Virus record (IMG/VR): IMGVR_UViG_3300009158_000058
Coordinates: 1-58,273 of that record
Source: a virus
Reading direction: 5' to 3' (one strand)
DNA length: 58,273 bases
Shown here: one piece after another, positions 90-49,722 of the stretch
Numbering within the stretch: the first letter of the stretch is position 1
Layout: each line of letters begins with the position of its first letter
Program-made: the position numbers and the translations under genes
The notes under the pieces: generated by a model
The model's database searches: none
The model's input: only the letters and a program-made list of their open reading frames with translations
Told to the model about the DNA's origin: nothing

Positions 90-91
90 GA

Positions 92-469: not shown

Positions 470-470
470 A

Positions 471-1094: not shown

Positions 1095-1095
1095 T

Positions 1096-1302
1096 TTAAG
1101 CCATTAATGATGCGGCCGCTACGGCAGCGTTTAAAATAGTATTCAAGGTTTCTTTTAACTGGAGGCCTTCTGCATCCTCGTTAATTCCCTCCATGATATT
1201 TATACCTAAAAGTAGTTGGAGATACTCTTCCTTAGTGATACTTCCAGCGTCCACCATGGCTTTATACTGGTCACATAAGTTTTGTAGTTCTTGTGGGTTC
1301 AT
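1096..1302 (-). CDS. Small hypothetical protein in lysis cassette
   Basis: A 68-residue, mostly helical, mildly acidic protein with an alanine-rich C-terminus (AAVAAASLMA). There is no signal peptide, convincing membrane segment or recognisable motif. Its start overlaps the stop of the lipoprotein gene by four bases (ATGA), and it ends one base before the endolysin, so it is part of the same translated run. The late promoter box for the endolysin is embedded in it. Function unknown. Confidence 0.6.
   Translation of the reverse strand: MNPQELQNLCDQYKAMVDAGSITKEEYLQLLLGINIMEGINEDAEGLQLKETLNTILNAAVAAASLMA
1197..1204 (-). promoter_or_regulatory. Late promoter box TATAAATA of the endolysin
   Basis: Perfect late consensus inside the upstream small gene, about 103 bases before the endolysin start. 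It would give late expression of endolysin and the genes after it. Confidence 0.6.
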
Positions 1303-1706
1303 CTTGGTTTACTCCCTAGTGCTTGTTGAATGGTTTCAGCAGATTTTTCAATTTGTTGTAGTTTTACTTTACAAAAAATAGGTGATATTTTATCAGCTTT
1401 ATTGAAGTAATCTCTTGCATCTTTGGTTAAAGTAAATAATTTGGCAGATAATTTCGCAGCATCTTCATTTCGAGGAATATATACTGTGAAATTTTTGAAC
1501 TCTAAAGCACTATTATACAGGTCATTTACCTGTGTAATAACTAAAATATGATTAGCACAATTTTCTTCAGCCACTTGTGCTTTAGTTTTAATTTGATTTA
1601 CCAATGAATATTCTGTTGTATCATATTTGGCCATAAAGTAAGCATCAAACAATGCACATCCAGAAAGTTGTAAAGCACAAATACAAATTAAAAGTTGTTT
1701 TTTCAT
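1299..1706 (-). CDS. Small lipoprotein of the lysis region
   Basis: A 135-residue product beginning MKKQLLICICALQLSGCALF, a classic lipoprotein signal: basic start, hydrophobic core, and lipobox LSGC with Cys17. It should be lipid-anchored in the envelope with a soluble helical domain of about 115 residues containing one further pair of cysteines (Cys at about 50 and 112). I chose this ATG rather than an upstream one because only this start gives a signal peptide and it sits one base after the stop of the nuclease gene. Its place beside spanins and endolysin suggests a lysis or superinfection-exclusion role, which is inference. Confidence 0.65.
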   Translation of the reverse strand: MKKQLLICICALQLSGCALFDAYFMAKYDTTEYSLVNQIKTKAQVAEENCANHILVITQVNDLYNSALEFKNFTVYIPRNEDAAKLSAKLFTLTKDARDYFNKADKISPIFCKVKLQQIEKSAETIQQALGSKPR

Positions 1707-1707
1707 A

Positions 1708-2145
1708 TTAGTTACACCAGCTTGTTTTAGCTTCACCATAATATTCTCTTGCATAACCTTGTTGTATCAACATACTGCGTAATGATTTACCATCTAACAA
1801 TACATCACCCAATACTCGACCACCATATTTGTCCCAATCCATCAATACAACCTGTCGTGTAGTGGCACCATTAATCAAACTCTTGGTAAATGCCGTTGCT
1901 GCTTGCCCACGAGCATCTTCTGATGGACATTGTGCTCTGAATCCTTTTTCTGGTGTATCTACACCAAATACACGAATTGACAATTCTTTCTTCAATGGAT
2001 CTGGTAACCATAATGCTTGAAATGCAACAGTATCGCCATCAATAACTCTGGTGATGGTTGCATTATAGGTTACGCCTTCTTTTTGTTTCTGTGCAAATAC
2101 TGTTGTTGAAGTAATCAACATTAATGCAATTAATAGTTTTTTCAT
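1708..2145 (-). CDS. Secreted thermonuclease (SNase-like) family protein
   Basis: A 145-residue staphylococcal-nuclease-like enzyme. Residues 1-19 form a signal peptide, so the enzyme should act in the periplasm or outside the cell. The OB-fold active site is intact: VIDGDT (Asp36, Asp38), RVFGVDTPE (Arg58, Asp63, Glu66) and KYGGRVLGDV (Arg110). Relatives cut DNA and RNA with calcium. The start was chosen at MKKLLIAL because the longer reading adds residues before the signal peptide and runs further into the spanin gene; a four-base overlap with the spanin stop remains. A secreted nuclease inside a lysis cassette is unusual. Confidence 0.88.
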   Translation of the reverse strand: MKKLLIALMLITSTTVFAQKQKEGVTYNATITRVIDGDTVAFQALWLPDPLKKELSIRVFGVDTPEKGFRAQCPSEDARGQAATAFTKSLINGATTRQVVLMDWDKYGGRVLGDVLLDGKSLRSMLIQQGYAREYYGEAKTSWCN

Positions 2146-2435
2146 TTCACACTTTCGTAAATTTGTTTTTGTTGAATATACCACTCTTGCCAAGATTTAT
2201 ATCTTTCCAGAACGTCAAAATAAATGCCATAATTTTCATTGGCATTGTCTAACAAATCTGTTAGTGTTTTTTTATTATCGGGGAGTTGTTTTAGACTTGG
2301 TGGTGGTTCCATCAAGACTTGTGGTGCCTGTGGAAACTTTTGAGTCAATGGAACGGTTGTAGAGCATCCAAGCAGTATCAGACAGACGGCACTCAGCATC
2401 AATATTTTGCCGTTGCGCTTGAATATCTTTTGCAT
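2142..2435 (-). CDS. Outer-membrane spanin lipoprotein (Rz1-like)
   Basis: A 97-residue lipoprotein: basic N-terminus, hydrophobic core and lipobox LLGC with Cys24, followed by a proline-rich linker (VPLTQKFPQAPQVLMEPPP) and a C-terminal helix. The proline-rich stretch after the lipidated Cys is characteristic of Rz1-type o-spanins. About 160 bases of its 5' part overlap the 3' end of the inner-membrane spanin in another frame, the classic Rz/Rz1 arrangement. Together the two proteins should bridge the periplasm and fuse the membranes in the last step of lysis. Confidence 0.8.
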   Translation of the reverse strand: MQKIFKRNGKILMLSAVCLILLGCSTTVPLTQKFPQAPQVLMEPPPSLKQLPDNKKTLTDLLDNANENYGIYFDVLERYKSWQEWYIQQKQIYESVK

Positions 2436-2772
2436 TGTTTTTCACCCTATCTTTAATTTCACTTCTTTTTTTATCTAATTCATTTGTTAATTTTTGATTA
2501 ACTTTAGCAGACTTAATTTCTGCTTCTTTAATTTTTGCTTGCATTTCGGCTATTCTAGCACGATACGACATTTCAGTTGCATATCCTCCTTCAAAGAATA
2601 CACCAACTATCAACAACACTATACCTAACTGTCTACCAATCAAAGCATATGGTTGAATAACAGGTATAAATCTAACAAGTGATCCTATAAATGTTAATAC
2701 AAGTCCAAGAATGACTAGACCATGTATTGCCCATTGTAAAATCAAATCAGGTATGAATGATAAAAACCACAT
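2275..2772 (-). CDS. Inner-membrane spanin (Rz-like)
   Basis: A 165-residue protein with two hydrophobic segments (about residues 13-35 and 43-60), then a long charged coiled-coil (about 70-120; EMQAKIKEAEIKSAKV) and a polar tail. The coiled coil would lie in the periplasm and pair with the overlapping o-spanin lipoprotein. Rz proteins usually have a single N-terminal anchor, so two hydrophobic segments is a small oddity; the first may be a re-entrant or signal-like helix. The call rests mainly on the nested lipoprotein gene. Confidence 0.72.
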   Translation of the reverse strand: MWFLSFIPDLILQWAIHGLVILGLVLTFIGSLVRFIPVIQPYALIGRQLGIVLLIVGVFFEGGYATEMSYRARIAEMQAKIKEAEIKSAKVNQKLTNELDKKRSEIKDRVKNNAKDIQAQRQNIDAECRLSDTAWMLYNRSIDSKVSTGTTSLDGTTTKSKTTPR

Positions 2773-2773
2773 A

Positions 2774-3382
2774 TTAAGCCTTTGGAGATTTTCTCCTGAT
2801 AGACATCATAACAGGACTTTTCTTTCTACGGGGTAAATAAACACCTGGTTCTCCACCATTGGGTCGTCCTGTACCAGCAATTGCACCGCTACTAACCACA
2901 TTCGTTGGACCAGCAGAACCACCCATCGCACCATCTTCTTTGACACAATTAGGTACCATACGGTTGCCTTTTTTCTTCATACCTTTTGCTGTGTATCCAT
3001 CCCAACAGGCTTCATCAACTTCTTCGTTTTTTTCTCGACCTTGACAATGTGCCTTTTGAGAAAATCCTTTAGGATTATTACAGTTAATACTTTTTTTGTA
3101 TTTTTGTGACCACTTCTCAAGGAAAGTTTCTTCGGTCTTTACATTGATTGGTGCACCACGGCGTTCTGGATTTGGATCTTCTCTACGCTTTCTTTGAGCA
3201 GCACTAGCACGAGCTTCTTTACCAATTGCATGAGCTTTTGCTTGAGGTAAACACTTTGGTTTGCCTTCACCCGGTTCTCTTGCACAGTCACCTTTAATAT
3301 TACCTTTGGTGTCCATACGAACCCACTTCTGTTTAAACCATTGGCGTAAATCTTCACCAAGATATTGTTTAAATGATTTCAT
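2774..3382 (-). CDS. Putative internal virion protein with capsid-targeting-like N-terminus
   Basis: About 202 residues starting MKSFKQYLGED, which resembles the T4 internal-protein targeting peptide MKTYQEFIAEA. The body is highly basic with Cys-containing blocks: GDCAREPGEGKPKC near residue 30, a Lys/Arg/Ala stretch, and CWDGYTAKGMKKKGNRMVPNC near 125. Such blocks recur in T4-like marine phage proteins as I recall them. It could bind DNA or metal. The start was set at this Met because it gives the targeting-like peptide and a one-base overlap with the preceding stop (TGATG). The precise role is not known. Confidence 0.6.
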   Translation of the reverse strand: MKSFKQYLGEDLRQWFKQKWVRMDTKGNIKGDCAREPGEGKPKCLPQAKAHAIGKEARASAAQRKRREDPNPERRGAPINVKTEETFLEKWSQKYKKSINCNNPKGFSQKAHCQGREKNEEVDEACWDGYTAKGMKKKGNRMVPNCVKEDGAMGGSAGPTNVVSSGAIAGTGRPNGGEPGVYLPRRKKSPVMMSIRRKSPKA

Positions 3383-3702
3383 CAGCAATTCCACTTTCTT
3401 AAAGCTTTGTTGATGCGGCTATCCGGATCATTTGCTGTCTTAGCGGATGTTAATCGTTTCTTCATGCCACCCATTCTAGCACAAAATGATTTTCTACGAT
3501 TGGCTGATTTAGAACCTGGTTTTAGTTTAGATGGTTTTGTTGTAACAGCCATCGATAATTTAGAACCTGGATTTTCTCTACGATAAGAGGCAATACCTTT
3601 ACGATTTAAACCACCTTCTGGATCTTTACCGGCGGCTCGTTGCCATGCTGGAGATTTTTCGTCTAAGTATTCTTCGGTTACAAACTGTTTAAATGTTTTC
3701 AT
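3382..3702 (-). CDS. Small basic protein with capsid-targeting-like N-terminus
   Basis: A 106-residue, very basic protein. Residues 1-10 (MKTFKQFVTE) closely match the T4 internal-protein targeting peptide, with a candidate prohead-protease site VTE at residues 8-10. The remainder (SPAWQRAAGKDPEGGLN, then FCARMGGMKKRL) belongs to a recurring domain of unknown function in T4-like phages (the DUF6321 type, from memory). A DNA-binding, head-packaged role is likely but inferred. It is translationally linked to both neighbours by short overlaps. Confidence 0.62.
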   Translation of the reverse strand: MKTFKQFVTEEYLDEKSPAWQRAAGKDPEGGLNRKGIASYRRENPGSKLSMAVTTKPSKLKPGSKSANRRKSFCARMGGMKKRLTSAKTANDPDSRINKALRKWNC

Positions 3703-4085
3703 ATTTGCCTCAATATCTCTGCGACATTAACGTCTATTGGTATTTCTACAATCGAAATGTTTTTATCTCTAATTCCATAAACCATTTCTGGTACAATATT
3801 TAAATATGACAAGAAAGTTTTGAGTATATCATAATCTCTCTCGTCTATTTTATAAAATAATATTCTTGCCGTGTGTTCTGGACCAAAAACATTATTCAAT
3901 AAAATGATATGATTTAATATCAACCTCTCTTTGAGAGATTTGGTAATTTTATATCTACGAAATAAACGCTTCAAATATTTGGTTCGTTTAATATCACTTT
4001 CAAATTCAGACATGATACAATGTGGTGAATTATAACATTTCATTGCATATATCAAAAAATTATCATCATTTAAATTATCAATCAT
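3699..4085 (-). CDS. Conserved phage protein of unknown function
   Basis: A 128-residue mixed-charge protein with no signal peptide or membrane segment. It has a basic central helix (KRTKYLKRLFRRYKITKSLKE is the core) and a more acidic C-terminal half. Its start is four bases after the preceding gene and its stop overlaps the next start by four bases, so it is within the late virion operon. I recognise no catalytic motif. Proteins of this look occur in T4-like marine phages, but I cannot assign a role. Confidence 0.5.
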   Translation of the reverse strand: MIDNLNDDNFLIYAMKCYNSPHCIMSEFESDIKRTKYLKRLFRRYKITKSLKERLILNHIILLNNVFGPEHTARILFYKIDERDYDILKTFLSYLNIVPEMVYGIRDKNISIVEIPIDVNVAEILRQI

Positions 4086-4089
4086 TCTG

Positions 4090-4551
4090 TCATTCTTCTT
4101 CTATGTCTGGTTCCTCTGAAGAAAGATAATCATCTAATTCATTTTCATCAGAAATCATCGCTTCAACATCGTAATAACCATTATCATCTGTTTCATATGA
4201 AAAATAAAAATAATGTTTAACTTCATCTAAATTATTCAACTTCTCTACTGTACCATTCAATTCGGCACCCGAGCGAGCACCGAATTGGTCGATATGAATA
4301 ATTTCTTCACCAGCATCTAAATCATGAAATACTACTTTTGGGAGAGTAATGCCATATAAAACTAATACTTTACTTGCACGAACCCAAGCAGAATATGGAT
4401 TCATATGATTTCCACTTACAGCTAACGCTAGGTTGCGGTTCAATTCTTGGCGGGTTATCTTGTCCGCCAAGTTCGAACCACTTTTCATAATCTGTGCAGT
4501 AGGAATTATTAAATCATTTCCTTCTACAACAAATTGTTTAAATCCCAACAT
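4090..4551 (-). CDS. Acidic protein with capsid-targeting-like N-terminus
   Basis: A 153-residue protein whose first residues, MLGFKQFVVEG, fit the pattern hydrophobic/basic-x-FK-x-F-x-x-E shared by several proteins of this operon and by T4 internal proteins, with VVE as a candidate cleavage site. The C-terminal third is strongly acidic (ends EEPDIEEE). There is no catalytic motif I recognise. The start codon overlaps the stop of the upstream structural gene (TAATG), supporting this start. Confidence 0.55.
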   Translation of the reverse strand: MLGFKQFVVEGNDLIIPTAQIMKSGSNLADKITRQELNRNLALAVSGNHMNPYSAWVRASKVLVLYGITLPKVVFHDLDAGEEIIHIDQFGARSGAELNGTVEKLNNLDEVKHYFYFSYETDDNGYYDVEAMISDENELDDYLSSEEPDIEEE

Positions 4552-5171
4552 TAAACACCTTGGAACACAGAGTTTGTGCTTGTGTTACCAGAACTTACGT
4601 TCAATGCAGTTGGAGCTGCAATAACAACTAAAGTTTCTCTTAATTGACGCTTAGTACCATCGTTGTTTACTTTGTATGTAAAACGATTCCAACCAGTATG
4701 AACACCGTTGTTTGCACCAGCAATCAAAGTATTTGCTAAACGAGTGGATGTTACCAAGATTGTGTCGTTAGCAAAACGTGAAGCTGCATTTGTGCCGTGA
4801 TTAATTGCGGTAGCAAAGTAGATTGTTTCACCAGCGGCGATTGGAGCTACTGTGTTGTTTGCAAACTGAACACGAATGTTGGCCGCACCAGTTCTGATTA
4901 CTGCAACGCTATTGTTACCACGTTTAAAGGAAATATCTTGTTGGTCAATGATAGATGTATCAAAGAAACGAGATAATCCGTTATTTGCGGTTGCATAAAC
5001 ATACATTCCGTTTGCAATACCGGATGTGGTTGGATTGGTTGTAAATATAATTTCATTGGTGCCTAATGCTGTCGCATTGGCAGTTACTAATGTAGCTACA
5101 GGAATAACTTCTCTATTTTCTGGAAAGAGTGGTTCGCTGTTTGCTCTATCGTTATTTCCCCATAATGGCAT
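4551..5171 (-). CDS. Virion structural protein, beta-rich
   Basis: A 206-residue protein beginning MPLWGNNDRANSEP and then rich in Thr, Ala, Asn and Val in alternating patterns, as expected for a beta-sandwich. Related MPLWGN-type proteins recur in T4-like marine phages as presumed virion components (from memory). A GATAAATA box, one base off the late consensus, lies about 35 bases upstream of the start and a good ribosome site (AAGGAGAAA) precedes the ATG. A head-decoration or fibre-attachment role is possible but unproven. Confidence 0.6.
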   Translation of the reverse strand: MPLWGNNDRANSEPLFPENREVIPVATLVTANATALGTNEIIFTTNPTTSGIANGMYVYATANNGLSRFFDTSIIDQQDISFKRGNNSVAVIRTGAANIRVQFANNTVAPIAAGETIYFATAINHGTNAASRFANDTILVTSTRLANTLIAGANNGVHTGWNRFTYKVNNDGTKRQLRETLVVIAAPTALNVSSGNTSTNSVFQGV

Positions 5172-5202
5172 TTTTTTCTCCTTTTAACCTTGGGTTGTGT
5201 TA

Positions 5203-7170
5203 CTATTTATCTGTTTTCTGATTGCTGATTTTATTATCAGGTCTTACTGATTTTCTCATTATAGGATCGATTTCTAAAGTATCTCTTGGTTGACCTGTTA
5301 ATGTTGTTCCACCCTTTAAAACCATAGCGGCTTGATTATCATCATCACCATAAACCTCTTGTTTGTCCATCTTTGGTTTTTTACCATAACTTGCTACTGA
5401 TTTATCTTCTTTTTCGTGGTCATACAAATCTTCTTTGACCATCTTGTGTTTCTTGTATAATGACTTAATTATACGAGCTGATTTGGACATTTCTTTTTTC
5501 TTGGAATAAACTGGTTCTCTATCGTCAGCTTGAGTTCCCATATCAAAAGCAGTTTGTGTTGCAGCTTGTGTGTCTTGGAACACATCTTCTGATGTTGGTT
5601 TGTAACCAGACAAACGGTCTAGAGCTCTATTCCAACTCTTATTATGAGTTTTAATTTTTTGGTTATGGTCTTTTCTACTCATACCTGGTTTTTTCTCAGG
5701 TACAACTGGTTGTTTTTTCAACCAAGAAAATACTGTGGTCTTTTTGAGTTCATCAATTTCTTCCACTTCTTCATTTCTATATCGTGGTGCTTCTTTATCC
5801 GTAGTTCTGTAATTTCCACTATCTGTATTTGAGAAATATTTGGCTCCGTGAGTTGCAAGGCTTTTTGCTATACCCTTTGGAGTTTTTTTATACAATGAAG
5901 GATCCGATTTATACATTGGATGACCAGGACGATGTTCACCTTCTTCTATCTCAACATCTTCTTTAACAGTAATGTGTCGTTCCACTTTTGTTAGGCGGCA
6001 ACCTTCTTTACATTTTTCATTTGCTTGACGAATTGCATCCTCATCGTCTTTTGCAATCAACAAATTCATTCCTGTCCACTCACCTGTTTTTGGATCTTCG
6101 TAATGTGCAGCGTGTGTATGAGAATCATTTTTTTCAGTAACAACTTCCTCTTTCATTTTCAGTTCATCTTTTCTTTTACCAAAAGTCTTATGAACAAGAG
6201 TATCTAAGTTTTTATGAAATGAAGTTTCTTTAGCTTTACTAATACCAGATGCTTCATCAATACCACTTCCATGATATTTGTGAGCAATGTGCATGGCCAA
6301 CTTTTCATGCTTTTCTTTTGGCACATTGGTACCTCTCAAATATCTTAAAGCTGACTGGTGAACTTTATTATCATCTCCAGCATCACTATTATAAGGAGCG
6401 TGGTCGGAATTTGTCCAATTATCAAAGTGATGTTGAACTTCTGAATCAGAAACTTCATTGACAGTTTCTTCTTTGTTTAAATGTTTCTCTAAACGGTCAA
6501 TAGCAGATGTCATATCAGAACCATCTTTAGATTGGTTCTTCTCAATCTCATCGTGTTTCTTTGCTCGGACTGCTGCAGCTGCACGAAATCTTTCTAATGC
6601 GGTTGGTTTGGTATTATATGTACCGGCACTCAAACTTTTTTTAATTTTAGTTGCACTATTGTCCCATGCCTCTGATGTCAATTCATCAGATTGTTCCGTT
6701 TTTTCAGATACCGATTTCCATCCACCACCCATTGCTTTATATTTCTTAGATGCCCAACCATTTGCATATGCGGATGGATATACTGCAAATTTGGATTTAG
6801 CCGCAGCCTTGGCACGAGCCCATTTTTCTGGACTTGTTGGTACATTTTTTTCATCGATAGGCTCAACTTCTTCTGTTTGTGCCCGTTGTGTTTTCATTTT
6901 GTCGGCAACAGTAGTTGAAACATAGTTAATTGGATCATCAAACTGGTGGTCACGCCTCCATTTATGAAACTCAGAAGATTTTGCATGAGATATTTTTGTG
7001 TCTTTGCTGACGAAATCTGGATTAATACCACGAGATTTAAGATAATCGTGTAGTTCACCTTTTTGACTTTCGGTGATACCTGCACGAACAGACCATGGTT
7101 CATTAGGGTCTGTACCAAAGGTGGGTTTCTTTTCACCCTTAACAATCATTTTTAATTTTTTTGCATCCAT
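5203..7170 (-). CDS. Large charged modular protein, probable internal virion protein
   Basis: A 655-residue, very hydrophilic protein rich in Lys and Glu. Small modules are separated by acidic linkers that look alike: EEVEPIDEK near residue 105, ETVNEVSD near 240, GIDEASG near 305, EVVTEKN near 345, EEVEEIDEL near 470. Several contain a hydrophobic-x-Glu step like the sites cut by the T4 prohead protease. One module (about 112-155, PEKWARAKAAAKSKFAVYPS) is a recurring phage domain of unknown function. No enzyme motif. It may be a polyprotein of internal head peptides (inference). Confidence 0.55.
   Translation of the reverse strand: MDAKKLKMIVKGEKKPTFGTDPNEPWSVRAGITESQKGELHDYLKSRGINPDFVSKDTKISHAKSSEFHKWRRDHQFDDPINYVSTTVADKMKTQRAQTEEVEPIDEKNVPTSPEKWARAKAAAKSKFAVYPSAYANGWASKKYKAMGGGWKSVSEKTEQSDELTSEAWDNSATKIKKSLSAGTYNTKPTALERFRAAAAVRAKKHDEIEKNQSKDGSDMTSAIDRLEKHLNKEETVNEVSDSEVQHHFDNWTNSDHAPYNSDAGDDNKVHQSALRYLRGTNVPKEKHEKLAMHIAHKYHGSGIDEASGISKAKETSFHKNLDTLVHKTFGKRKDELKMKEEVVTEKNDSHTHAAHYEDPKTGEWTGMNLLIAKDDEDAIRQANEKCKEGCRLTKVERHITVKEDVEIEEGEHRPGHPMYKSDPSLYKKTPKGIAKSLATHGAKYFSNTDSGNYRTTDKEAPRYRNEEVEEIDELKKTTVFSWLKKQPVVPEKKPGMSRKDHNQKIKTHNKSWNRALDRLSGYKPTSEDVFQDTQAATQTAFDMGTQADDREPVYSKKKEMSKSARIIKSLYKKHKMVKEDLYDHEKEDKSVASYGKKPKMDKQEVYGDDDNQAAMVLKGGTTLTGQPRDTLEIDPIMRKSVRPDNKISNQKTDK
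5204..5211 (-). promoter_or_regulatory. Late-promoter-like box (GATAAATA)
   Basis: One base from the late consensus, 33 bases before the structural gene at 4551-5171. Confidence 0.45.
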
Positions 7171-7179
7171 GTTTTTACC

Positions 7180-8421
7180 TTAACCGTTATTTCCTGGAGC
7201 TTTACCTAACATCTCTGTTTTAATTCTTTTCATAGCTGAACGAGCCAAATCTTTAGCACGGGACATTGGTGTGTGTTTTGCACCAGATTTATCTGTTACT
7301 GAAGCACTAATTTTTTTGTATGGTTTATCAAAAGGAGGTTGTTCCGCATTTGTTACAAAAGGAACTGTATCAGATTCAGGTTGTTTACCTTCTTGAACGC
7401 CACGAGCTTTGGCTAAATTTTCTTTTGAAGAAATTGAATCTTTATTTCCAGCTTTTGCATCAGCAACTGTCAATGGTTTATCACCACGAGCCTTACGCAA
7501 GAAAGCTGGAATGTCAGACTTTTTTACTTCTTCTTTCATTGGACCTCCACGAAATTTTACTTTTGTGGATCTACCATTTGAATTAGGACCAACATCATCA
7601 GATTGTGCTGTTCGTTCTTGACCTTTTAGTGTATCTTTGGTGCGAACTTTAGGATCAATTTCTTCTTCAACAGCATCTTCTTTCATTGACTGTTTTGTTG
7701 CTGTGGCATACATTACAGATTTTGCATCTTTTCCATAACGCTGTCTAAATCCAGCAAAACCTTTTTTCATTGACTTAACAATTTTTTCACGCTTGGCCAT
7801 TTCAGCGTCAGTCATGTGTTTTTCTTCAATTGACTCAACTTCTTCTTTGTGCATTTTATCTACGTGTTTGGAAACTTCACCATCTTTACCATGTAATCTT
7901 TTTTCATGCTTTTTTACTTCTTGTTTGGCTTCATCTTCACATGAATCTTCTGCTACATTTTTTTGGCCACGAAGAATTTTAAAATCTTGAGAATCAATTT
8001 TATTATTTTTATTTTTGTCAATCTTATGTTGATTGCCTTTAAGAGCTTCAATTAGTTTGGCTTTAAATTCAGTCGATTCGTTCTTTTTCTTATCAGCAAC
8101 TGCCTTCTTCATTGGCTCTTTCTTGTCGCCATCTTTATCCATGTCCAAGAAGTCTGGTTTGGCAGCTTCATCATATCTACTTTTGGTTTTCTCGTAATCT
8201 TTTTTGTCTTTACCAGTCAACTCTTTAGTTGTAGGACCTTTAATTGTGTCGATATCTCTCTTAACTTGGTCACGGCGTGCTTTGGCCGAATCACCATAAG
8301 AAGAACCATAAACTTTCATGCCAGTTGAAGTGGTTACCTTTTCTGCTTCAGCAATAGTTTCATCTGTAATTTTACTTACAGCATCAGCAACTGAATTCAT
8401 TTTAAGTTTATTGACAAACAT
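7180..8421 (-). CDS. Charged protein with calcium-loop motifs, probable internal virion protein
   Basis: A 413-residue Lys/Glu-rich protein. Residues 21-27 (ETIAEAE) contain IAE followed by Ala, the same residues that are cut in T4 internal protein III. Two loops resemble EF-hand or dockerin calcium sites: DMDKDGDKKEPM near residue 97 and DKNKNNKIDSQD near 138. Acidic linkers like those of the adjacent 655-residue protein recur. The start ATG follows the previous stop by one base and has a GGAGAAA ribosome site. No enzymatic fold is visible; head packaging is inferred from the cleavage-site match and position. Confidence 0.58.
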   Translation of the reverse strand: MFVNKLKMNSVADAVSKITDETIAEAEKVTTSTGMKVYGSSYGDSAKARRDQVKRDIDTIKGPTTKELTGKDKKDYEKTKSRYDEAAKPDFLDMDKDGDKKEPMKKAVADKKKNESTEFKAKLIEALKGNQHKIDKNKNNKIDSQDFKILRGQKNVAEDSCEDEAKQEVKKHEKRLHGKDGEVSKHVDKMHKEEVESIEEKHMTDAEMAKREKIVKSMKKGFAGFRQRYGKDAKSVMYATATKQSMKEDAVEEEIDPKVRTKDTLKGQERTAQSDDVGPNSNGRSTKVKFRGGPMKEEVKKSDIPAFLRKARGDKPLTVADAKAGNKDSISSKENLAKARGVQEGKQPESDTVPFVTNAEQPPFDKPYKKISASVTDKSGAKHTPMSRAKDLARSAMKRIKTEMLGKAPGNNG

Positions 8422-8422
8422 T

Positions 8423-10216
8423 TTATTTCTCCTGTTTCTTTTTCTTTTTAATTTTTATTTGGGTGCCAATATTTCTATTTGCATCTTTATATGATTGCAT
8501 TGGTTCAAAATTAGTAGCGCCATTCAAAGTTCCACCTACACCCATGTCAGGTATAGAAATGTCATTTTGAAAACCATTATATTCTTTAATTGTTTTTCTA
8601 AAACTACTAAATTCTTTTTGTTCTCTGTATGTTACATCGCCTAGACCTGACATAGGATATACTGTTCCTTGTTGGCGTGTATCAAATTCTGGCCCCACAC
8701 CTGCGGTGTTCCGTAGTCTTTGACTTACGGTTGGAGCATCTACTATTCGTTTCTTCTTTACTTGCTCTTTGTCTTTGGAGAAGTTGGTTTCTTTCGGCTG
8801 CGGGTTGACGGTGAGCGTTGGTTCTTGGGCTTCGCTGTAGGTGCGGAAGATGAAGGTTTTTCGCTTACTGTTGGAGTTCCACTTGATGTCATCTCCGTTG
8901 GAGTCGTTTGGTCTGTTGTCGGCTGGGATGCTGTCGAGTCCAGGGGCTTTGAGTTCTGGATTGGTTTTAATTTTAGTAAATTTACTAGCGCTTTGAACAT
9001 TTTTTTCTTCCTTAATTAAATTATCACTTTTATTTAACTTACCGTGCTTTTCTAACCACGACAAAGACACATCTCCATAGGTCCTACCTTCAATGAAGTT
9101 ATGAATATTTAGGTAAGTTTGAGTTATATCTTCCTCAATGGATTCAAGTGAGCCCGTATTGTCTATCTGCACGAAATTGTCAAAAGATTCGGCAAAGAGA
9201 TTTTTATTTTTCTGAGCTTGTGTCCATTTGTCGTATCGAATGGATTCGACCATCATACGGGACAGTTTAGTATTTCTTTCTTGACTTACTTCATTTGTGG
9301 TATTCACAAATATCATCATACTGGAATAACCTAAATCTTCTAATTCCTCTTTGATATAGTTGATTTTGTCAATACTATCTGCTGGTCCGTTGATAATTAA
9401 AGGACCACGATTCCGAATGGCTTCTCTGCGGAAATCACTGGTTTTTTCAGATAGTTTTTGTTTATCAGCAAGGTAATCATAGGCTTGATTGGCGTTAAGT
9501 TCCACGGCACGAGCTTCTGGTATTGATTCACGGATAATGATATCTTTGCCAGAACCAGGTCCACCGGTTACAAAGATGGCTTTGAATAGACCACGATTAA
9601 AGTTTTCATGTAACCCCATACCCTTACGGGTATCATGCATAAGTTCTTTTGCGTGTTTATCTGAAACGTGTTCTGGCACACCTTTTTTGAATTCTTTTGC
9701 ATTACCAGAAGCGGCATGAGCTCGCATTTTGGTACCAGACATACCAGTTGAACCTTCGGCATCAGGATCTCTTTGACCTGCTGAATGGACAGTAATCTTT
9801 TTGAAATGGTACAACGCACCTTTGTGTGTACCATTGTATTGGTGTAATTTCTTTTTATACTCATCAACACGGTCAGAACCAGCAACCATATGAAGATGTG
9901 TTACACCTTTCTTATGTAATTCGGCTGCATGATGTAGGAATGTTGGATGTTCTTTGGAAGATGCCTCAAAGTGTGTACCTGGAGAATACCTTTTAAGGTG
10001 TTTAATTTTCTGTTCAGCTGATAATGGATTCTTCTTAGAATCTTGGGAGTGTGAAGTTACAACAGAATGTGAGGCATTGTGTTTAGCTGCTACTTCCTTA
10101 ACCTTGTCAATTAACTTCAAATGACCTGTGGTTGGAGGATTCATGCGACCAAAGGTCATCACATGGTGTTTTTCACCTTGTTTTGTTTCTTCGACTAGTT
10201 CTAAAAACGATTTCAT
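8423..10216 (-). CDS. Nucleotidyltransferase-kinase fusion, putative capsid-packaged
   Basis: A 597-residue protein in three parts. Residues 1-10 (MKSFLELVEE) resemble a capsid-targeting peptide. Residues 17-200 are an HxGH-type nucleotidyltransferase domain: GRMNPPTTGH at 23-32 and the second signature SGTKMR at 160-165. Residues 210-375 are a P-loop kinase: GGPGSGKD at 218-225 plus an Arg-containing lid region (ERNTKLSRMMVE) as in polynucleotide or zeta-type kinases. The last 200 residues are low-complexity and structural-looking. NadR has a similar order of adenylyltransferase then kinase, so NAD metabolism is one reading; nucleic-acid end processing is another. Coupled by ATGA to the ligase-like gene. 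Confidence 0.72.
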   Translation of the reverse strand: MKSFLELVEETKQGEKHHVMTFGRMNPPTTGHLKLIDKVKEVAAKHNASHSVVTSHSQDSKKNPLSAEQKIKHLKRYSPGTHFEASSKEHPTFLHHAAELHKKGVTHLHMVAGSDRVDEYKKKLHQYNGTHKGALYHFKKITVHSAGQRDPDAEGSTGMSGTKMRAHAASGNAKEFKKGVPEHVSDKHAKELMHDTRKGMGLHENFNRGLFKAIFVTGGPGSGKDIIIRESIPEARAVELNANQAYDYLADKQKLSEKTSDFRREAIRNRGPLIINGPADSIDKINYIKEELEDLGYSSMMIFVNTTNEVSQERNTKLSRMMVESIRYDKWTQAQKNKNLFAESFDNFVQIDNTGSLESIEEDITQTYLNIHNFIEGRTYGDVSLSWLEKHGKLNKSDNLIKEEKNVQSASKFTKIKTNPELKAPGLDSIPADNRPNDSNGDDIKWNSNSKRKTFIFRTYSEAQEPTLTVNPQPKETNFSKDKEQVKKKRIVDAPTVSQRLRNTAGVGPEFDTRQQGTVYPMSGLGDVTYREQKEFSSFRKTIKEYNGFQNDISIPDMGVGGTLNGATNFEPMQSYKDANRNIGTQIKIKKKKKQEK

Positions 10217-11403
10217 TTTCTAACTTTTAATAAATTTTGTTTAGCAAACTCAGCACGATTAACCAATTTGGTTGGTTGATTATCGTGGTGAACTACAAAA
10301 CCTTCAGGTTTAGACTTCTTACCTTCAATGTGATGTTGGTAATGTCCTTCATGTGTTTCTAGTGATTTAACCAAAGCATTTTTAGCTTGATGTAAATGGT
10401 GATGCATAGCAAACAAATTACCATAATGTGCTTTGTGTTTTTCAACATGAGCAATCTGTGAGGCACCTTCTTTGGTCTTTTCAGACTTGGATTTCTCAGT
10501 TTTTACTTTGGCAGCCTGTTTTGCATGAATGTCGTGTAAATGTTCTTTAAAGCCTTTAACACTTGGCACTTCGTCATGTCTTACTGTCTTGTTTATGTAG
10601 GTTGACAGGTGGCCAGTTTCTCCGCCATGTTTTGGATGAATCGCATCATACATCTTGTGACCATGAGTGTCGTGGATTTCTTTAGCTGCAGCCATGTGTT
10701 TTTGAAAGTGTTTCTCATTCTCAGCAGAATGTTTTACTTTACTTGTATCATGTTCTGCACCGTGAATATGAACATCTGGATGTTCTTTAAACTTTGACGT
10801 ATCTACATGAGGTGAAGCGTGTTTCATATCATTACTATACTGGTGGTGAACCACCACACCAACCTTAGAGCGTTTTATTTTTTCTGCTTCTTTACCTTTG
10901 GCAGTATAAGTGATTGTATTTGGAGTAAAAGAAACATCACCTTTCGCTTCTACAATATAACCTTCATGTAAATGCTTTGTATCAGCATGATGCATTAGGT
11001 CACCTTGGAATACACCTTCTTTTGGTGTTACTTTTGGTAAATGTTTTAATGCGTGTTTGAGTGTTTTTGCTAAACCAGGAGCATGACCATGATTCTTGTC
11101 AATATCTTTTTCTGTATGGTTAATCTTTGGATTCTTATTAAAAGCAGATTTGGTTGCAACAAAGAATTTACCATTTTTGGGGTGATGACCAAAAACGATT
11201 GATGGAGAACCATCATATTTCATCGTTAAATTGGTATTCTTATGACCACCAGTCATGTGTGCATGAGCTTTCATCAAAGCTGCATGGGCGTGTTCAAAAC
11301 CTGCGTGGCCGTGCATCAAAGGCCTATCTTCCGCATGATGAATATGTTTAAGTTCAGAACCTTGTTCAGATTCCTCCGTTAAGAATGACTTAAATGATAA
11401 CAT
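10213..11403 (-). CDS. Histidine-rich ligase-like nucleotidyltransferase, putative capsid-packaged
   Basis: A 396-residue protein strikingly rich in His and Lys. Residues 1-10 (MLSFKSFLTE) match the capsid-targeting pattern. Motifs of the covalent nucleotidyltransferase (DNA/RNA ligase, capping enzyme) superfamily are visible in order: KYDG at 62-65 (motif I, with Lys62 as candidate adenylated residue), FQGDL near 132 (motif III-like), EGFVV near 375 (motif IV-like) and TKLV about 10 residues later (motif V-like). It corresponds to a phage family of unknown function (DUF6267, from memory). Preceded by AGAAGGA and by a perfect late promoter; first gene of the late unit. Ligase activity is inference. 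Confidence 0.65.
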   Translation of the reverse strand: MLSFKSFLTEESEQGSELKHIHHAEDRPLMHGHAGFEHAHAALMKAHAHMTGGHKNTNLTMKYDGSPSIVFGHHPKNGKFFVATKSAFNKNPKINHTEKDIDKNHGHAPGLAKTLKHALKHLPKVTPKEGVFQGDLMHHADTKHLHEGYIVEAKGDVSFTPNTITYTAKGKEAEKIKRSKVGVVVHHQYSNDMKHASPHVDTSKFKEHPDVHIHGAEHDTSKVKHSAENEKHFQKHMAAAKEIHDTHGHKMYDAIHPKHGGETGHLSTYINKTVRHDEVPSVKGFKEHLHDIHAKQAAKVKTEKSKSEKTKEGASQIAHVEKHKAHYGNLFAMHHHLHQAKNALVKSLETHEGHYQHHIEGKKSKPEGFVVHHDNQPTKLVNRAEFAKQNLLKVRK

Positions 11404-11512
11404 TGAATTTCCTTCTGATTTGCAATACACTTTGATTGCCAGTTGCTTATTTATACAACTTCTTGGTTCTTGAGCTCAATTCTTAGAAAGATTGGCTTCG
11501 ATACATAGTGGC
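11404..11512 (-). promoter_or_regulatory. Late promoter region of the internal-protein operon
   Basis: 109-base gap without a gene. It holds a perfect TATAAATA box at 11448-11455, about 45 bases before the start of the ligase-like gene, and the ribosome site AGAAGGA. It separates the sugar cassette from the virion/lysis unit. Confidence 0.75.
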
Positions 11513-12229
11513 TTAATTATTCCATTTTGTACCTTCAAAATCCAACCAATAATTGGCCATACGACCTTTTCCTTGAAGTAAATAGAATGGTAGGGTATGA
11601 ACTAATGCTCGACTGGATCCATAGTATATCAGGTCTTTAGGTCCTTTGTCAAGCGCCCATGCAAAGTGGCTAGAACCAGTATCACCACCAACAAAGATTT
11701 CCGCTGTGGTAATGTGGTAATAATTCTGCACAAAATTGGTAGAATACCGCCAACCCTCAAATGGGCAACCTTCGGTTGATTCGCCTTTTTTACAGATTAC
11801 TTTTTCATAATCTTTATATTCTTCAGTAGAATACTTGGCAATAATCTGTTCATATACATTCTTTGGCCAGTTACGCCATTGATTATATGGTGCATCAAAT
11901 AATGGAAATACAGCAATCTTCTTTTCCATCGGTGCATTATTTGGTATTTTTATCAAATCACCACATATATCTCTGAAATCCCAAACATTTACTTTTCTCC
12001 AAGGCAATGATTGTTCACCCGGTTCTGTTGAAAAATAATTAGTCATCTTCAACATTATCTCATAAAATGTTTGACAATGTGTGTCTGAGCTAACATTTCC
12101 TGGTTTCAAATGAAACTGTATTGTAGGATTGTTATTTGTTTTTCTGATATGTTCCAAGACATTCGCAACAGCAATCATATCTCCATTTCGAACTGTGCCA
12201 AAAGTTCCAGGTTCAATATTGATAATCAT
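11513..12229 (-). CDS. Glycosyltransferase, heptosyltransferase-like (GT9-type)
   Basis: A 238-residue soluble protein. The C-terminal half has the feature expected of the ADP-heptose transferase fold: a stretch reading TAEIFVGGDTGSSHFAWALDKGPKDLIYYG near residue 180, which in GT9 enzymes contacts the donor sugar nucleotide. The N-terminal half is a Rossmann-like alternation. It is the last gene of the sugar cassette, overlapping the preceding gene by four bases. It probably transfers a sugar to host surface glycan or a virion protein; donor and acceptor cannot be read from sequence. Confidence 0.6.
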   Translation of the reverse strand: MIINIEPGTFGTVRNGDMIAVANVLEHIRKTNNNPTIQFHLKPGNVSSDTHCQTFYEIMLKMTNYFSTEPGEQSLPWRKVNVWDFRDICGDLIKIPNNAPMEKKIAVFPLFDAPYNQWRNWPKNVYEQIIAKYSTEEYKDYEKVICKKGESTEGCPFEGWRYSTNFVQNYYHITTAEIFVGGDTGSSHFAWALDKGPKDLIYYGSSRALVHTLPFYLLQGKGRMANYWLDFEGTKWNN

Positions 12230-12957
12230 AGTGTAATATCTTTCACATAAACTAATTTTGATTTACGATTACCATAATAGTGTCGTTTAAAATCAAACTC
12301 AACAGGATGGCCATCCCAAGTCCTCATATCTTCGTCCCAACCAACGATTGTTTCTTTATTCATTAGGTCAGCAATAATACCAATGCCTGTGAATGTAGTA
12401 ATAAATGGATTAGGATTCTGTTTGATAAGATTGCAATTATACATTAATGGCTTTGAGTAGTCCATATATACAACTTTGTCTTTATCAAGATTTGCACCAT
12501 TCTCAATTACATTGGTGTATCGTCTTGCATCAACACTAGGATCTTGTTTTGCAGACCATCTATCACCAATAATAGTTTTATCATTGAAATCATCAACAAA
12601 CATTGGGAAAACTTGAATCTCAAAATCATCATCAACTTCAAATAACATTCTGTAATTATCATTTACCCAATTCTCATAACGACAGGTCTCAATAGGACGA
12701 TTTGAATCTTCTTGGTCCATGCGTGTCCATGAACTGATAGTCATAATGTCACCAAAAGTCAATAAATCATCGGAGAAATCGACATCTTCAATCATTGGTT
12801 GATATTTTAAAAACTCTTTAATACCATTAAACTTACGCATCTCTGGTCTGATAATGAGATGAATCTTTTCATTTTTATATTTTGAGATACCTGAGATTAC
12901 AGGTAGTGCATTACAAAAATCACCTAGATTGGCGGTACAATCAATTTTAATTTTCAT
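12226..12957 (-). CDS. Heptosyltransferase-like protein of the sugar cassette
   Basis: A 243-residue product starting MKIKIDCTANLGDFCNALPV, which matches the N-terminal donor-domain start of GT9 heptosyltransferases (hydrophobic strand, then GDxxxALPxI). This start was preferred over an upstream in-frame codon because it begins directly with the first strand and overlaps the previous gene by only 11 bases. With the adjacent 238-residue protein it might form a two-subunit enzyme, since each looks like part of a full-length transferase (usually 330-350 residues). That pairing is inference. Confidence 0.5.
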   Translation of the reverse strand: MKIKIDCTANLGDFCNALPVISGISKYKNEKIHLIIRPEMRKFNGIKEFLKYQPMIEDVDFSDDLLTFGDIMTISSWTRMDQEDSNRPIETCRYENWVNDNYRMLFEVDDDFEIQVFPMFVDDFNDKTIIGDRWSAKQDPSVDARRYTNVIENGANLDKDKVVYMDYSKPLMYNCNLIKQNPNPFITTFTGIGIIADLMNKETIVGWDEDMRTWDGHPVEFDFKRHYYGNRKSKLVYVKDITL

Positions 12958-13744
12958 TATAATCCTTAAAAGCAACAAACCAATCATCAGCTGATACTTT
13001 ATGCAATTCAAACAATTCTGGTTTTTGTAAATACGACATCAATAAGATGGTTTGGTCATCATCTATTAAATTATTTTTAAGTAATTGGTCTACACTATGG
13101 TGAACTAAATGCTCTAGTGTTTGCCACATATCTTTACCCGCAACAATACATGGACCTGTAATGTGAACATCATTATTGAAAATAACATTCTCAATGAATG
13201 TGCCTTCTTGCCAATCTTTTAAATTGAAAAAGTGTATTTTATCTTTGGCAAAAGGATATTGCCAATGTTTAACATCATTAAGTGTAGATAGGTCTCTACA
13301 GTATCCGAAATCCATCCAAGCAACCAAATCAGTATTAATAAGATTAGATTGTAAAGCTCTTGTAACAAAAGATGACTTTAAAAAATTGACGAGAACATAG
13401 TCAGCATTCCAATACTCTGGATTTTTTGCTTGTGCGGGATTTATTTTAGCTTGATATTCTGAGTCTTTTTGAACTCTGGTAATCTCATCTCTTAGTTTTT
13501 GAAAACTATTAGGAAAATCAATTGTGAGTATGTCAGTAGGTCTATCCTGTCTGAGAAATTTTACCTCATCAACCAAATCTTTTGATGTATAAACAACCAT
13601 AGGATTTTCCAATTTAGCCATATGACTAAATCGGTCAAGATATGTTTTGGTCGTTCTATGTAAATAGTGTGGTAATCCTTTGTCTGGTGTCCAATCACCA
13701 CGACCAATATCAAAGAAAGCGGTGACTATTGTTATGTCGTTCAT
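12947..13744 (-). CDS. HtrL/YibB family protein
   Basis: A 265-residue protein beginning MNDITIVTAFFDIGRG, the hallmark start of the HtrL/YibB family, followed by aspartate motifs typical of GT-A-like folds (WMDFGYCRDL near residue 145). YibB in enterobacteria lies in the lipopolysaccharide-core gene region; its reaction is not firmly known. In this cassette it most likely acts as a sugar transferase. It is linked by a four-base overlap to the preceding gene. Confidence 0.7.
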   Translation of the reverse strand: MNDITIVTAFFDIGRGDWTPDKGLPHYLHRTTKTYLDRFSHMAKLENPMVVYTSKDLVDEVKFLRQDRPTDILTIDFPNSFQKLRDEITRVQKDSEYQAKINPAQAKNPEYWNADYVLVNFLKSSFVTRALQSNLINTDLVAWMDFGYCRDLSTLNDVKHWQYPFAKDKIHFFNLKDWQEGTFIENVIFNNDVHITGPCIVAGKDMWQTLEHLVHHSVDQLLKNNLIDDDQTILLMSYLQKPELFELHKVSADDWFVAFKDYNEN

Positions 13745-45509: not shown

Positions 45510-46841
45510 TTACATCAAGTTCTTGACACCGAAAATACGATAGTATTTGTTGGTACGAGCATTCAAACCACCCAAACCAGCGCCTAGACCTTCTGCGAAT
45601 GGGTTTGATACCATTCCGTAACGAGTCTTGAAACCAATCTTTGGTTGGAATGTATACTGGTCTACAGCACGAACCATTTGCAATGGAACGTATGGGCAAT
45701 AGAACAAACCAGCATCGTATGGTGAAGAACCTTTGTAACCGATAGTTACGAGTTCTTGGTTAGATGTGTATCCACCGAAGTATGGGTCAATGTAAACCTT
45801 GATACGACCGTGTAACAAACCAGCAAATGTGTTGCCTGTGTCATCTACTTGCAAGTCAGCTTGGAGAGCAGGAGTATATTGCAATACACCAGCCATTGCC
45901 ATAGCAGAAGCAACGTCAGAAGAAACAATTAACACGTTACCTTTTCCACGGCGAGTCTGCTTAGCAATTACGTTAGCATCACGCTCGATTTGGAAAATTA
46001 GACCTTTGAAACGCTCAACTGACCAACGGCCGTTTGAGTCTGTATCTAAGTCAAAGAAACCTGCTGTTGTTGTACCATACTGAGCACCTGGAACGGCAAC
46101 AGTATAGATGGTACGGATAACTTCACGGTTGATTTCAGCGAGAACTTCTGTAGACAGAATGTTTGACAATTCTGTTTCAGCGTCAAGACCATGAATTGCT
46201 TTCAAGTCTTGTGCAAGTTCTAGTGAATACTCGGCCTTTAATGCACGGCTTTGAGCAGTTACAGTAACTTTCTCAATAGAGAAGGCCATCTGTGCAAATG
46301 CTGTGTTACCGTCAGAACCAAGGTATTCAGCAGTAGCTGTTGGCATTCCAATACCAGTTGTGTAGGTGTTAGCGGCCAAAGTTGCAGAAACAATAGGATT
46401 TGTACCTGTGTCAGTTGCAGTTGTACCACGGAAACCGTATGGGTTGTTAGCAGAACCAACACCAGAGAACATTGTGTTCGCTTCGTTGAAGAATGCCTCG
46501 TCACCAGTTTGGTTAACATACTTAGCACGCATTGCAAAAATCAAACCGGTAGGACCAGTCATTGGCTGAACGCCAGCAACGTCATAAGCGATAAGATTTG
46601 GTAATGCACGGCGAACCAAAGAAATCAAGATTGGGTCAAAGTTTTGAACACCACCAGTTACGTTTGTAGGACCTGGTTCGGCGATTTCGTTCAAAGCAAG
46701 ACGGTCTTGACGCATTGCTTGTTGTTGGTTTTCCAAAACAAGAGCTGTTACAGCTTTCTTGTATGGGTCTTTGATGGCTTCGAGTTCTGGATGCTCAAGA
46801 ACAGGCTGCCATTTCTTTTGTAGTTCTTCTGTCAAATACAT
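45510..46841 (-). CDS. 23: Major capsid protein (T4 gp23-like)
   Basis: A 443-residue HK97-fold capsid protein (T4: 521). QNFDPILISLVRRALPNLIAYDVAGVQPMTGPTGLIFAM matches T4 VMGMVRRAIPNLIAFDICGVQPMNSPTGQVFAL in conserved residues; also YSLELAQDLKAIHGLDAE. The N-terminal 55 residues should be removed by the prohead protease at IAE (53-55) before Pro56, the counterpart of LTE in T4. A weak TATAAAAA box lies just before the ribosome site. Confidence 0.97.
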   Translation of the reverse strand: MYLTEELQKKWQPVLEHPELEAIKDPYKKAVTALVLENQQQAMRQDRLALNEIAEPGPTNVTGGVQNFDPILISLVRRALPNLIAYDVAGVQPMTGPTGLIFAMRAKYVNQTGDEAFFNEANTMFSGVGSANNPYGFRGTTATDTGTNPIVSATLAANTYTTGIGMPTATAEYLGSDGNTAFAQMAFSIEKVTVTAQSRALKAEYSLELAQDLKAIHGLDAETELSNILSTEVLAEINREVIRTIYTVAVPGAQYGTTTAGFFDLDTDSNGRWSVERFKGLIFQIERDANVIAKQTRRGKGNVLIVSSDVASAMAMAGVLQYTPALQADLQVDDTGNTFAGLLHGRIKVYIDPYFGGYTSNQELVTIGYKGSSPYDAGLFYCPYVPLQMVRAVDQYTFQPKIGFKTRYGMVSNPFAEGLGAGLGGLNARTNKYYRIFGVKNLM

Positions 46842-46875
46842 TTTTTATTCCTTTTTATATGTATTGTTAGGTTAA

Positions 46876-48066
46876 TTACTTAACCATGGTTTGTGAAATG
46901 GTTTTTGCATAGATATTGATAGATGGATCATCAGAGATAATTTTCTCTTTCTTTTCTTCTTCTACCAATACTTCGTCTAAAGCAGATGAATCAGCAACTT
47001 TAACATCAGACTTGAAATATGATTCTTTCAATGTTGATAGTTTAGTACCAAATTCTTCATCAGTAGTGAACTCTACACCTTCTGCAAGTGATTTCAGCTT
47101 TTCTACTTGAGTCTGCGTAAGGCCTTCACAAGCTGCGTAAATAGCCTCAAACTTTTTGTGCTCATTGAGTTCTTTCTTCATCTCAATGGCAGATTTGATT
47201 TGTTCGTTGTAAGCTTCTTCAAGTTCTTCAACTTTAGAAGTGAGTTCTTCAACAACATCTACCTTGTCGGTAGGAATGTCAATGTAATGCTCTTCAAACA
47301 AACCTTTTAATCCTGTAATAAAATCTTCAACGATTTCGGCACGGAGGCCTTTTTCGATTGCGATTTCGTTGTCTTTGACCCATTCTTCAACCATGTAGTT
47401 GAGATAGTCATCAACCTTAGCAGCCAAATCTTCTTTAACTTCTTCAATGGCAGCTTCAAACTGTTCTACTAATTCAGCTTCAGCTTCAGCAATAACTTCT
47501 TCTGCACGAGCAAGAACGGCAGCTTCAAAAATAGTAGTTGCTTTAGAAACAAATTCTTCAGAAAGATTTTCGCCTGTGAACATGGCATCCATATCTTCTT
47601 TCATTTTTTCTTTCATTTTCATTTTTTTCATCATTGCCTTATCTTGTGCCTCATCTTCGTGACCTTCTTCTTTTTCTTCGGCCACTACTTCTTCGTCAGA
47701 TTCGGTTTCTTCGTATTGTTGAACGCCAACAGAACCTTTATTTAAAGGCATTTCGTTTTTACCAGTTTTGCCTTCAGGTTGCTCAATTGCAGCACCATCA
47801 GATTCTTGTGGTTGACCTTTAAGTTTCTTTGCTGGCTCAGAACCAACGGGTGGTTTAGCACCAGGAGGTGTGGCTGATGGCGTACCTTTTGTGTAGTCAG
47901 GAAGTGCATCGGTTGTTTTGAGTGATACGGAACCGATATCTACTTCACCGGTGCCATAGGCTACATCACCAGATAGTTTTGCTGGTTTATCTTGGCCACT
48001 TTGTTTACCAGAAACATTACCCGAAAGAATGTCTTTAGCGGCTTCGGACAGATTAAATTTTCCCAT
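46876..48066 (-). CDS. 22: Prohead core scaffolding protein (T4 gp22-like)
   Basis: A 396-residue acidic, helical protein; T4 gp22 has 269 residues. After a low-complexity Gly/Pro/Lys half, residues about 130-280 are acidic coiled coil (EEKEEGHEDEAQDKAMMKKM, VIAEAEAELVEQFEAAIEEV). It forms the core around which the capsid assembles and is degraded by gp21; LSE at 6-8 and IAEA near 185 fit cleavage sites. A perfect late promoter precedes it. Confidence 0.88.
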   Translation of the reverse strand: MGKFNLSEAAKDILSGNVSGKQSGQDKPAKLSGDVAYGTGEVDIGSVSLKTTDALPDYTKGTPSATPPGAKPPVGSEPAKKLKGQPQESDGAAIEQPEGKTGKNEMPLNKGSVGVQQYEETESDEEVVAEEKEEGHEDEAQDKAMMKKMKMKEKMKEDMDAMFTGENLSEEFVSKATTIFEAAVLARAEEVIAEAEAELVEQFEAAIEEVKEDLAAKVDDYLNYMVEEWVKDNEIAIEKGLRAEIVEDFITGLKGLFEEHYIDIPTDKVDVVEELTSKVEELEEAYNEQIKSAIEMKKELNEHKKFEAIYAACEGLTQTQVEKLKSLAEGVEFTTDEEFGTKLSTLKESYFKSDVKVADSSALDEVLVEEEKKEKIISDDPSINIYAKTISQTMVK

Positions 48067-48094
48067 TTTGAAAATCTCCTTGATTTATATTGGA

Positions 48095-48102: not shown

Positions 48103-48103
48103 T

Positions 48104-49709: not shown

Positions 49710-49722
49710 TTTTTTATCCTAA

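Follow-up and report, generated by a model that had tools for sequence, protein, structure and literature searches.

Do proteins that begin almost alike within one viral operon carry a signal that takes them into the phage head? The operon in question lies at positions 2774–11403 on the minus strand of a 58,273-base IMG/VR virus record, which was analysed over its whole length (hereafter, the window) and which is from a T4-like phage whose head genes lie on the same strand. This stretch holds nine genes, five of them opening with a start of the capsid targeting sequence (CTS) type known from T4, and four without it, encoding proteins of 413, 655 and 206 amino acids (aa) and a DUF7207 protein. 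An earlier note had proposed that the five and the 413-aa protein are all packed into the head core and cut there by a prohead protease, with enzymes among them. We consider it very probable that the CTS of the five proteins is of the T4 type and functional, and that they are packed, cut and delivered with the DNA.

A ten-residue leader at five protein starts

The near-identity of the five starts was borne out: each begins with an ATG (Table 1) and fits M-x-x-F-x-x-[FYL]-[LV]-x-E, with F4, E10 and an F, Y or L at position 7 in all five, and with L in two and V in three at position 8. According to the accessible parts of a review on Black's work (PMC9026906), ten residues of T4 internal protein III (IPIII) suffice for packaging, targeting depends chiefly on residues 4 and 7 of its CTS and processing on residues 8 and 10, and the gp21 protease cleaves after L/I-x-E; positions 4 and 7 of the five leaders are occupied as T4-type targeting demands. 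IPIII does begin MKTYQEFIAEA, as the earlier note had it, and so does IPII, both sharing with the window leaders the length of ten residues, aromatic or large residues at 4 and 7, a hydrophobic residue at 8 and Glu at 10, while the strict motif is matched neither by T4 IPI nor by T4 Alt. T4 and the window are alike, too, in their gp21/gp22/gp23-type head genes, and the gp21-type protease and gp22-type core that a T4-type CTS requires are both encoded in the window, the protease in agreement with what had been claimed.

The window was searched with the motif M..[FYW]..[FYLWI][ILVF].E. Among 4,117 start-codon contexts it was matched by six, namely the five leaders and an ATG inside another gene (16491), and among the 70 open reading frames (ORFs) taken as genes it was matched by five. 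When residues 2–30 of these 70 ORFs were shuffled in 20,000 rounds, zero, one and two matches were obtained in 19,357, 637 and 6 rounds, respectively, and never more than two, for a list that was compiled by hand in a choice leaning towards the motif. Likewise favouring the motif, the inner ATG was chosen for the ORFs starting at 11403 and 3382, both of which extend upstream to a GTG.

Comparison of N-termini across related phages showed that the leader is kept to differing degrees. Matching starts made up 47/47 distinct starts in the DUF6267 family, 33/42 in the 597-aa family, 7/9 in the 153-aa family, 10/15 in the 202-aa family and 16/27 in the DUF6321 family, in which the remaining starts may be Met residues within larger proteins; in these counts a motif-matching Met was taken where one lay nearby and the search expression admitted near-matches, both of which favour the motif. 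Across 24 aligned DUF6267 rows, the farthest being 32% identical to the window protein, M1, F4, F7 and E10 of the leader were invariant and its other residues varied; these rows were mostly selected by a motif start, by which nothing was lost, as all 47 distinct starts carry the motif. Most rows of alignments A1 and A2 came from a listing restricted to ORFs with a motif start. The same following stretch occurs with the leader in one DUF6267 relative (L165, MKSFLSFISESKNTHLEHLED) and without it in that of cyanophage S-SZBM1 (MAKNTHLEHLED). Further, in the AlphaFold model of the DUF6267 protein the predicted local distance difference test (pLDDT) score fell below 50 only at residues 1–19 and in two short stretches, as is expected for a detachable leader.

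Tagged enzymes and published virion proteomes

Among the tagged proteins, the DUF6267 protein has KxDG (62–65), QGD (133–135) and EGxV (367–370) invariant in the 24 rows, and KxDG and EGxV were invariant too in a 7-row comparison that included the window; we take KxDG to be motif I and EGxV to be a motif IV-like element of covalent nucleotidyltransferases. Realignment of its model by VIA to Foldseek's 1000 best chains gave RNA, tRNA or DNA ligases or a ligation complex in all 50 rows listed, the best having Z 9.0 and a root-mean-square deviation of 3.7 over 185 residues. Foldseek alone found nothing at E 0.001 with this model, and a profile search of PDB sequences found no ligase; nothing of use came from searching the PDB by sequence or by profile. 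Judged from its model, the protein looks like an RNA-ligase-like enzyme, a predicted activity. In the 597-aa family, TTGH is present, its T29, G31 and H32 being unchanged across 28 rows, (T/H)xGH presumably being the nucleotidylyltransferase motif; NMNAT models, run on four relatives, matched only the S-SZBM1 one, below the cut-off, and the structure model of the window protein was of low quality, with a mean pLDDT of 56. This 597-aa protein combines the NMNAT-like domain with a P-loop domain; in HTVC008M, judged by eye, a separate gene encodes a P-loop protein.

Virion proteomes are published for the cyanophages S-CREM2 (PMC10665884), S-SCSM1 (PMC9602691) and S-SZBM1 (PMC9146016), and what follows holds for the accessible parts of these papers. 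In S-CREM2, 52 of 219 proteins were found in the virion. The strict motif, set before the coding sequences (CDS) of this phage were scanned, was matched by 4/219: the S-adenosylmethionine (S-AdoMet) hydrolase gp6, the APH-like kinase gp14, gp136 and the nucleotidylyltransferase gp154. Each of these four belongs to the virion, compared with 48/215 of the others (Fisher P=0.003). Virion protein gp13 has L at position 4, and the Cas9-like gp12 has the tag-like FASFMAE at residues 19–25. The NMNAT of S-SCSM1, a virion protein by its record labels, starts MKSFLQFLKEA, and the virion nucleotidylyltransferase of S-SZBM1 begins MRFRQFIIEA, one residue shorter than the motif. For the three phages together, 5/7 strict carriers were detected against 1.38 expected (P=0.004), on the assumption, made for all virion P values, that genes are independent and equally detectable. 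When near-matches were added (starts shortened by one residue or with M8), a class defined after part of the data had been seen, the count was 6/10 against 1.92 expected (P=0.005). Matches at S-SCSM1 28058, 46333, 77799 and 194172 and at S-SZBM1 4347 and 141149 were left out before counting as non-CDS starts.

The window proteins can be related to these virions to differing degrees. The 597-aa protein is homologous to a detected enzyme in all three phages (E 2e-22 to 2e-31), these NMNAT/cytidylyltransferase relatives having CTS or CTS-like starts. The claim that enzymes are among the cargo is supported. The DUF6321 domain recurs in the S-CREM2 virion protein gp137 (E 2e-19), and the 202-aa protein is weakly related (E 1e-4) to the virion proteins S-CREM2 gp160 and S-SZBM1_139. 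Unlike that of the window, the DUF6267 relatives of S-SZBM1 and S-CREM2 lack the CTS, and they are on neither virion list, on which the nucleotidylyltransferases with a strict or near leader are present. Proteins of some 105 aa resembling MKSFKQFISESVNISGDFNGNLYIN form a recurring family (S-SCSM1 gp030, S-SZBM1 gp085, L157, L158, L203) that has the tag or a near-match and was undetected in the S-SCSM1 and S-SZBM1 virion proteomes.

Spread of the leader and the remaining features of the window

A blind scan of IMG/VR with a DNA form of the tag gave at least 120 stretches, a sample of which all 120 were read; of the control with a scrambled tag, 80 of 85 stretches were read. Among the matches listed, an ORF of at least 60 aa was opened by 110/124 tag matches and by 15/80 scrambled ones, and the 114 proteins of at least 55 aa formed 46 BLAST clusters. 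In 62 tagged representatives from these matches, ten of them scanned singly, Pfam named 22 families, including DUF6267, nucleotidylyltransferase, DUF5661, DUF6321, adenylate kinase, HicA, SET, GNAT, HD_4, methyltransferase, HNH, DUF5824 and HIPIP. A tagged HD protein was matched over its first 137 positions by a RelA/SpoT family model, below the model cut-off; tagged RelA/SpoT-type HD and SET-domain proteins lie at L253:1226-1783 and L193:3078-3539, and a tagged protein at L175:10529-11047 resembles ADP-ribosyltransferases by eye, without a family hit.

Between the DUF6267 and nucleotidylyltransferase genes, a slot was empty in 47/76 and filled in 29/76 distinct cases, and the first gene was tagged in 16/29 filled slots. 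Examples lie at L115:8706-9995, L029:3833-4804 and L061:1221-2345; Pfam found nothing in these three slot proteins, and PHROGs matched that of L029 to a family of unknown function. Other filled slots start with MSLQLHIYRERAGLLEE or MIGLSFIFEKI, perhaps another kind of leader.

Contigs bearing the tag showed a weak tendency to carry T4 genes as well. RegA was found on 6/22 tag-bearing and 0/22 control contigs (no positive control rang), and sheath on 9/22 and 4/22, in contigs mostly shorter than a T4-like genome. The tag set comprised contigs of at least 25 kb among 80 listed, except L154 and L179, whose matches open very short ORFs, and the control set comprised 22 of the longer scrambled-match contigs, not all of them.

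As carriers of the CTS, the 413-aa (0/17 distinct starts matching), 655-aa (0/11) and DUF7207 (0/29) proteins were rejected, as was the MPLWGN protein; the 206-aa family matched in 0/16 distinct starts. The TIAEA that the earlier note had pointed out in the 413-aa protein is indeed present at 22–26, but among the listed relatives IAEA is kept only in identical copies and in L009 (SIAEA). The proposal for six proteins is partly supported: five have a T4-type CTS, whereas the sixth has neither a CTS nor a conserved IAEA site. Stretches of 32 and 64 residues in the 413-aa protein resemble the virion proteins S-SCSM1 gp280 and S-CREM2 gp111, matches that, like those of the 202-aa protein, are short or weak. 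Its family has a conserved start of its own, roughly MFxKxKVSQSMIDAVxxIIxE, which ends in a possible L/I-x-E site and, to judge from its residues, may be a second, longer type of leader.

A late promoter had also been proposed to drive the operon. A late-promoter-like box, TATAAATA, does lie 44 nucleotides (nt) before the first ATG, but the window holds 6 such boxes against a chance expectation of 5.95, and the box alone proves little because the total equals the chance count. Upstream of the operon is a gene run (11513–17600) in which one gene has a weak Glyco_transf_9 match below the cut-off; near the head genes, positions 43736–44425 match phrog_3704, labelled ferredoxin. Megablast of window positions 1–14000 against phages gave no match.

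Table 1. Leaders, genes and other features located in the window.
Feature	Position	Strand	Remarks
CTS decapeptide MLSFKSFLTE	11374..11403	-	DUF6267 protein start; ATG at 11403
CTS decapeptide MKSFLELVEE	10187..10216	-	597-aa protein start; ATG at 10216
CTS decapeptide MLGFKQFVVE	4522..4551	-	153-aa protein start; ATG at 4551
CTS decapeptide MKTFKQFVTE	3673..3702	-	DUF6321 protein start; ATG at 3702
CTS decapeptide MKSFKQYLGE	3353..3382	-	202-aa protein start; ATG at 3382
DUF6267 protein, 396 aa, RNA-ligase-like nucleotidyltransferase, predicted head cargo	10213..11403	-	PF19782, E 8.6e-95
Adenylyl/cytidylyltransferase (NMNAT-like) with P-loop domain, 597 aa, predicted head cargo	8423..10216	-	PF01467, TIGR00125, phrog_3041, weak Zeta_toxin
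153-aa protein, predicted head cargo	4090..4551	-	without convincing family match
Basic DUF6321 protein, 106 aa, predicted head cargo	3382..3702	-	PF19846, E 3.6e-19
Basic 202-aa protein, predicted head cargo	2774..3382	-	phrog_727-like
Charged 413-aa protein, possible head protein	7180..8421	-	without CTS at start
Charged 655-aa protein	5203..7170	-	without CTS
Late-promoter-like box TATAAATA	11448-11455	-	upstream of operon
Terminase, sheath, tube, portal, gp21-type protease, gp22-type scaffold, gp23-type capsid protein	45510-55919	-	
Prohead protease, gp21-type (Peptidase_S77)	48104-48748	-	PF03420, E 2.7e-37
Head scaffold, gp22-type	46876..48066	-	
Major capsid protein, gp23-type	45510..46841	-	IAE at residues 53-55, possible protease site

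Competing readings and the meaning of the tag

Several observations weigh against a working CTS on delivered cargo. The virion evidence comes from three other phages and not from this one, and within the accessible lists the strict carriers S-SZBM1 gp084 and gp085, one of 105 and the other of 165 aa, are outside the 30 detected proteins (PMC9146016), near-match gp30 of S-CREM2 is a non-virion protein, undetected there, and near-match gp030 of S-SCSM1 has no virion label. With a looser start motif, and equally when a wider motif was allowed at any position within residues 1–30, S-CREM2 carriers were 5 virion and 5 non-virion proteins (P=0.06). In HTVC008M and Melnitz-2, the relatives of DUF6267 and of the nucleotidylyltransferase are without the strict motif, which is present elsewhere in Melnitz-2, a neighbouring gene starting MQGFKTFLSEA. 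V at position 8 in three of the five leaders is outside the T4 L/I-x-E rule, and the S77 protease was found on 7/22 tag-bearing and 3/22 control contigs, no clear difference.

In the accessible text, the authors of the S-CREM2 (PMC10665884) and S-SCSM1 (PMC9602691) papers raised that virion enzymes might be left-over cell proteins. On this account, abundant late proteins co-purify and the shared start serves another end such as host membrane or chaperone binding, and the four motif or near-motif proteins undetected in virions speak for it; we nevertheless regard it as quite improbable, since the S-CREM2 strict carriers were detected in 4/4 cases versus 48/215 for the others and the motif fits the T4 tag at residues mapped by mutation. 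It is unlikely, though more readily imagined, that the leader brings proteins into the prohead core for head assembly, after which they would be cut up or left behind and not delivered as effectors. Some carriers are small and basic or charged, like T4 internal proteins, and IPIII itself has a role in head assembly (PMC9026906, in its accessible parts); against this, the tag is found on enzymes that have no obvious part in assembly (adenylate kinase, SET, RelA/SpoT-type HD, GNAT, HicA, methyltransferase and HNH proteins), an S-AdoMet lyase is tagged in S-CREM2, and slot genes are swapped between relatives. That the starts are alike by chance or by recent duplication without function is hardly credible: two of them share MK[ST]FKQ in adjacent genes, but shuffling gave at most two matches in 20,000 rounds, DUF6267 keeps positions 4, 7 and 10 while others change, and the tag is spread over many BLAST clusters among the matches listed.

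According to the favoured reading, that of delivered CTS-tagged cargo, residues 4 and 7 would bind the proteins to the gp22-type prohead core, the gp21-type protease would then cut after E10 and free them inside the head, and at infection the cargo would exit together with the DNA and take immediate effect in the host. It would consist of the RNA-ligase-like DUF6267 protein, the NMNAT-like/P-loop enzyme and small basic proteins. Packaging of tagged proteins is well supported, and we infer it for this phage, as we do injection into the host; cleavage of the leader after E10 is likely, but the cutting of all five is uncertain because three have V8 where the T4 gp21 rule is L/I-x-E.

Unlike the T4 internal proteins, the predicted cargo of the window has large enzymes among its members, encoded in a single island that contains a swappable slot, and V8 occurs in 3/5 leaders; T4 IPI itself fails the strict motif. 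The ejection proteins of SPN3US, the head proteins of phiKZ and P1 DarA/Hdf have longer propeptides and are not known to carry this decapeptide. As far as accessible sources go, SPN3US and phiKZ head proteins are likewise cut after Glu by a prohead protease, and SPN3US ejects proteins into the cell; T4 Alt, an injected ADP-ribosyltransferase, is packaged too, and its short leader is cut by gp21, but that leader, MELITELFDE, is of another form.

With RNA-ligase-like and NMNAT-like enzymes in the predicted cargo, its likely use is in early repair, or in defence where the host attacks RNA or nicotinamide adenine dinucleotide (NAD); that both are tagged suggests a set of enzymes for RNA or NAD repair directly after entry. 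The tag appears portable: in related phages it is found at the start of proteins of many unrelated kinds, part of them encoded in an exchangeable slot that separates the two conserved cargo genes. We therefore lean towards regarding the CTS as a general portable export tag of aquatic T4-like phages, a phage counterpart of a secretion signal that would mark effectors delivered at time zero. These effectors, it seems to us with the same leaning, would comprise RNA-ligase-like and NMNAT-like enzymes, S-AdoMet lyase, kinases and adenylate kinase, and also SET, GNAT, RelA/SpoT-type HD, HicA-type and HNH proteins, partly exchanged in cassette slots.

The CTS of T-even phages is already known, and the review cited above states, in its accessible parts, that T4-like phages may pack various proteins by it (PMC9026906). 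What is new is a CTS-tagged enzyme cargo in aquatic T4-like phages, together with a swappable cargo slot. A literature search for "capsid targeting" with "cyanophage" returned only PMC9026906, although subscription journals were mostly outside its range and earlier reports may exist; in the S-CREM2, S-SZBM1 and S-SCSM1 papers the term capsid targeting was not found. The S-CREM2 and S-SCSM1 papers, as far as accessible (PMC10665884, PMC9602691), left undecided whether their virion NMNAT-like, kinase, S-AdoMet hydrolase and Cas9-like proteins are genuine cargo. In the S-CREM2 set the tag stands at the start of the S-AdoMet hydrolase, the kinase and the nucleotidylyltransferase, and a tag-like stretch lies near the start of the Cas9-like protein. 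If true, the reading would provide a sequence rule for phage proteins injected with the DNA, and unannotated viral genomes could then be searched for counter-defence enzymes that act early.

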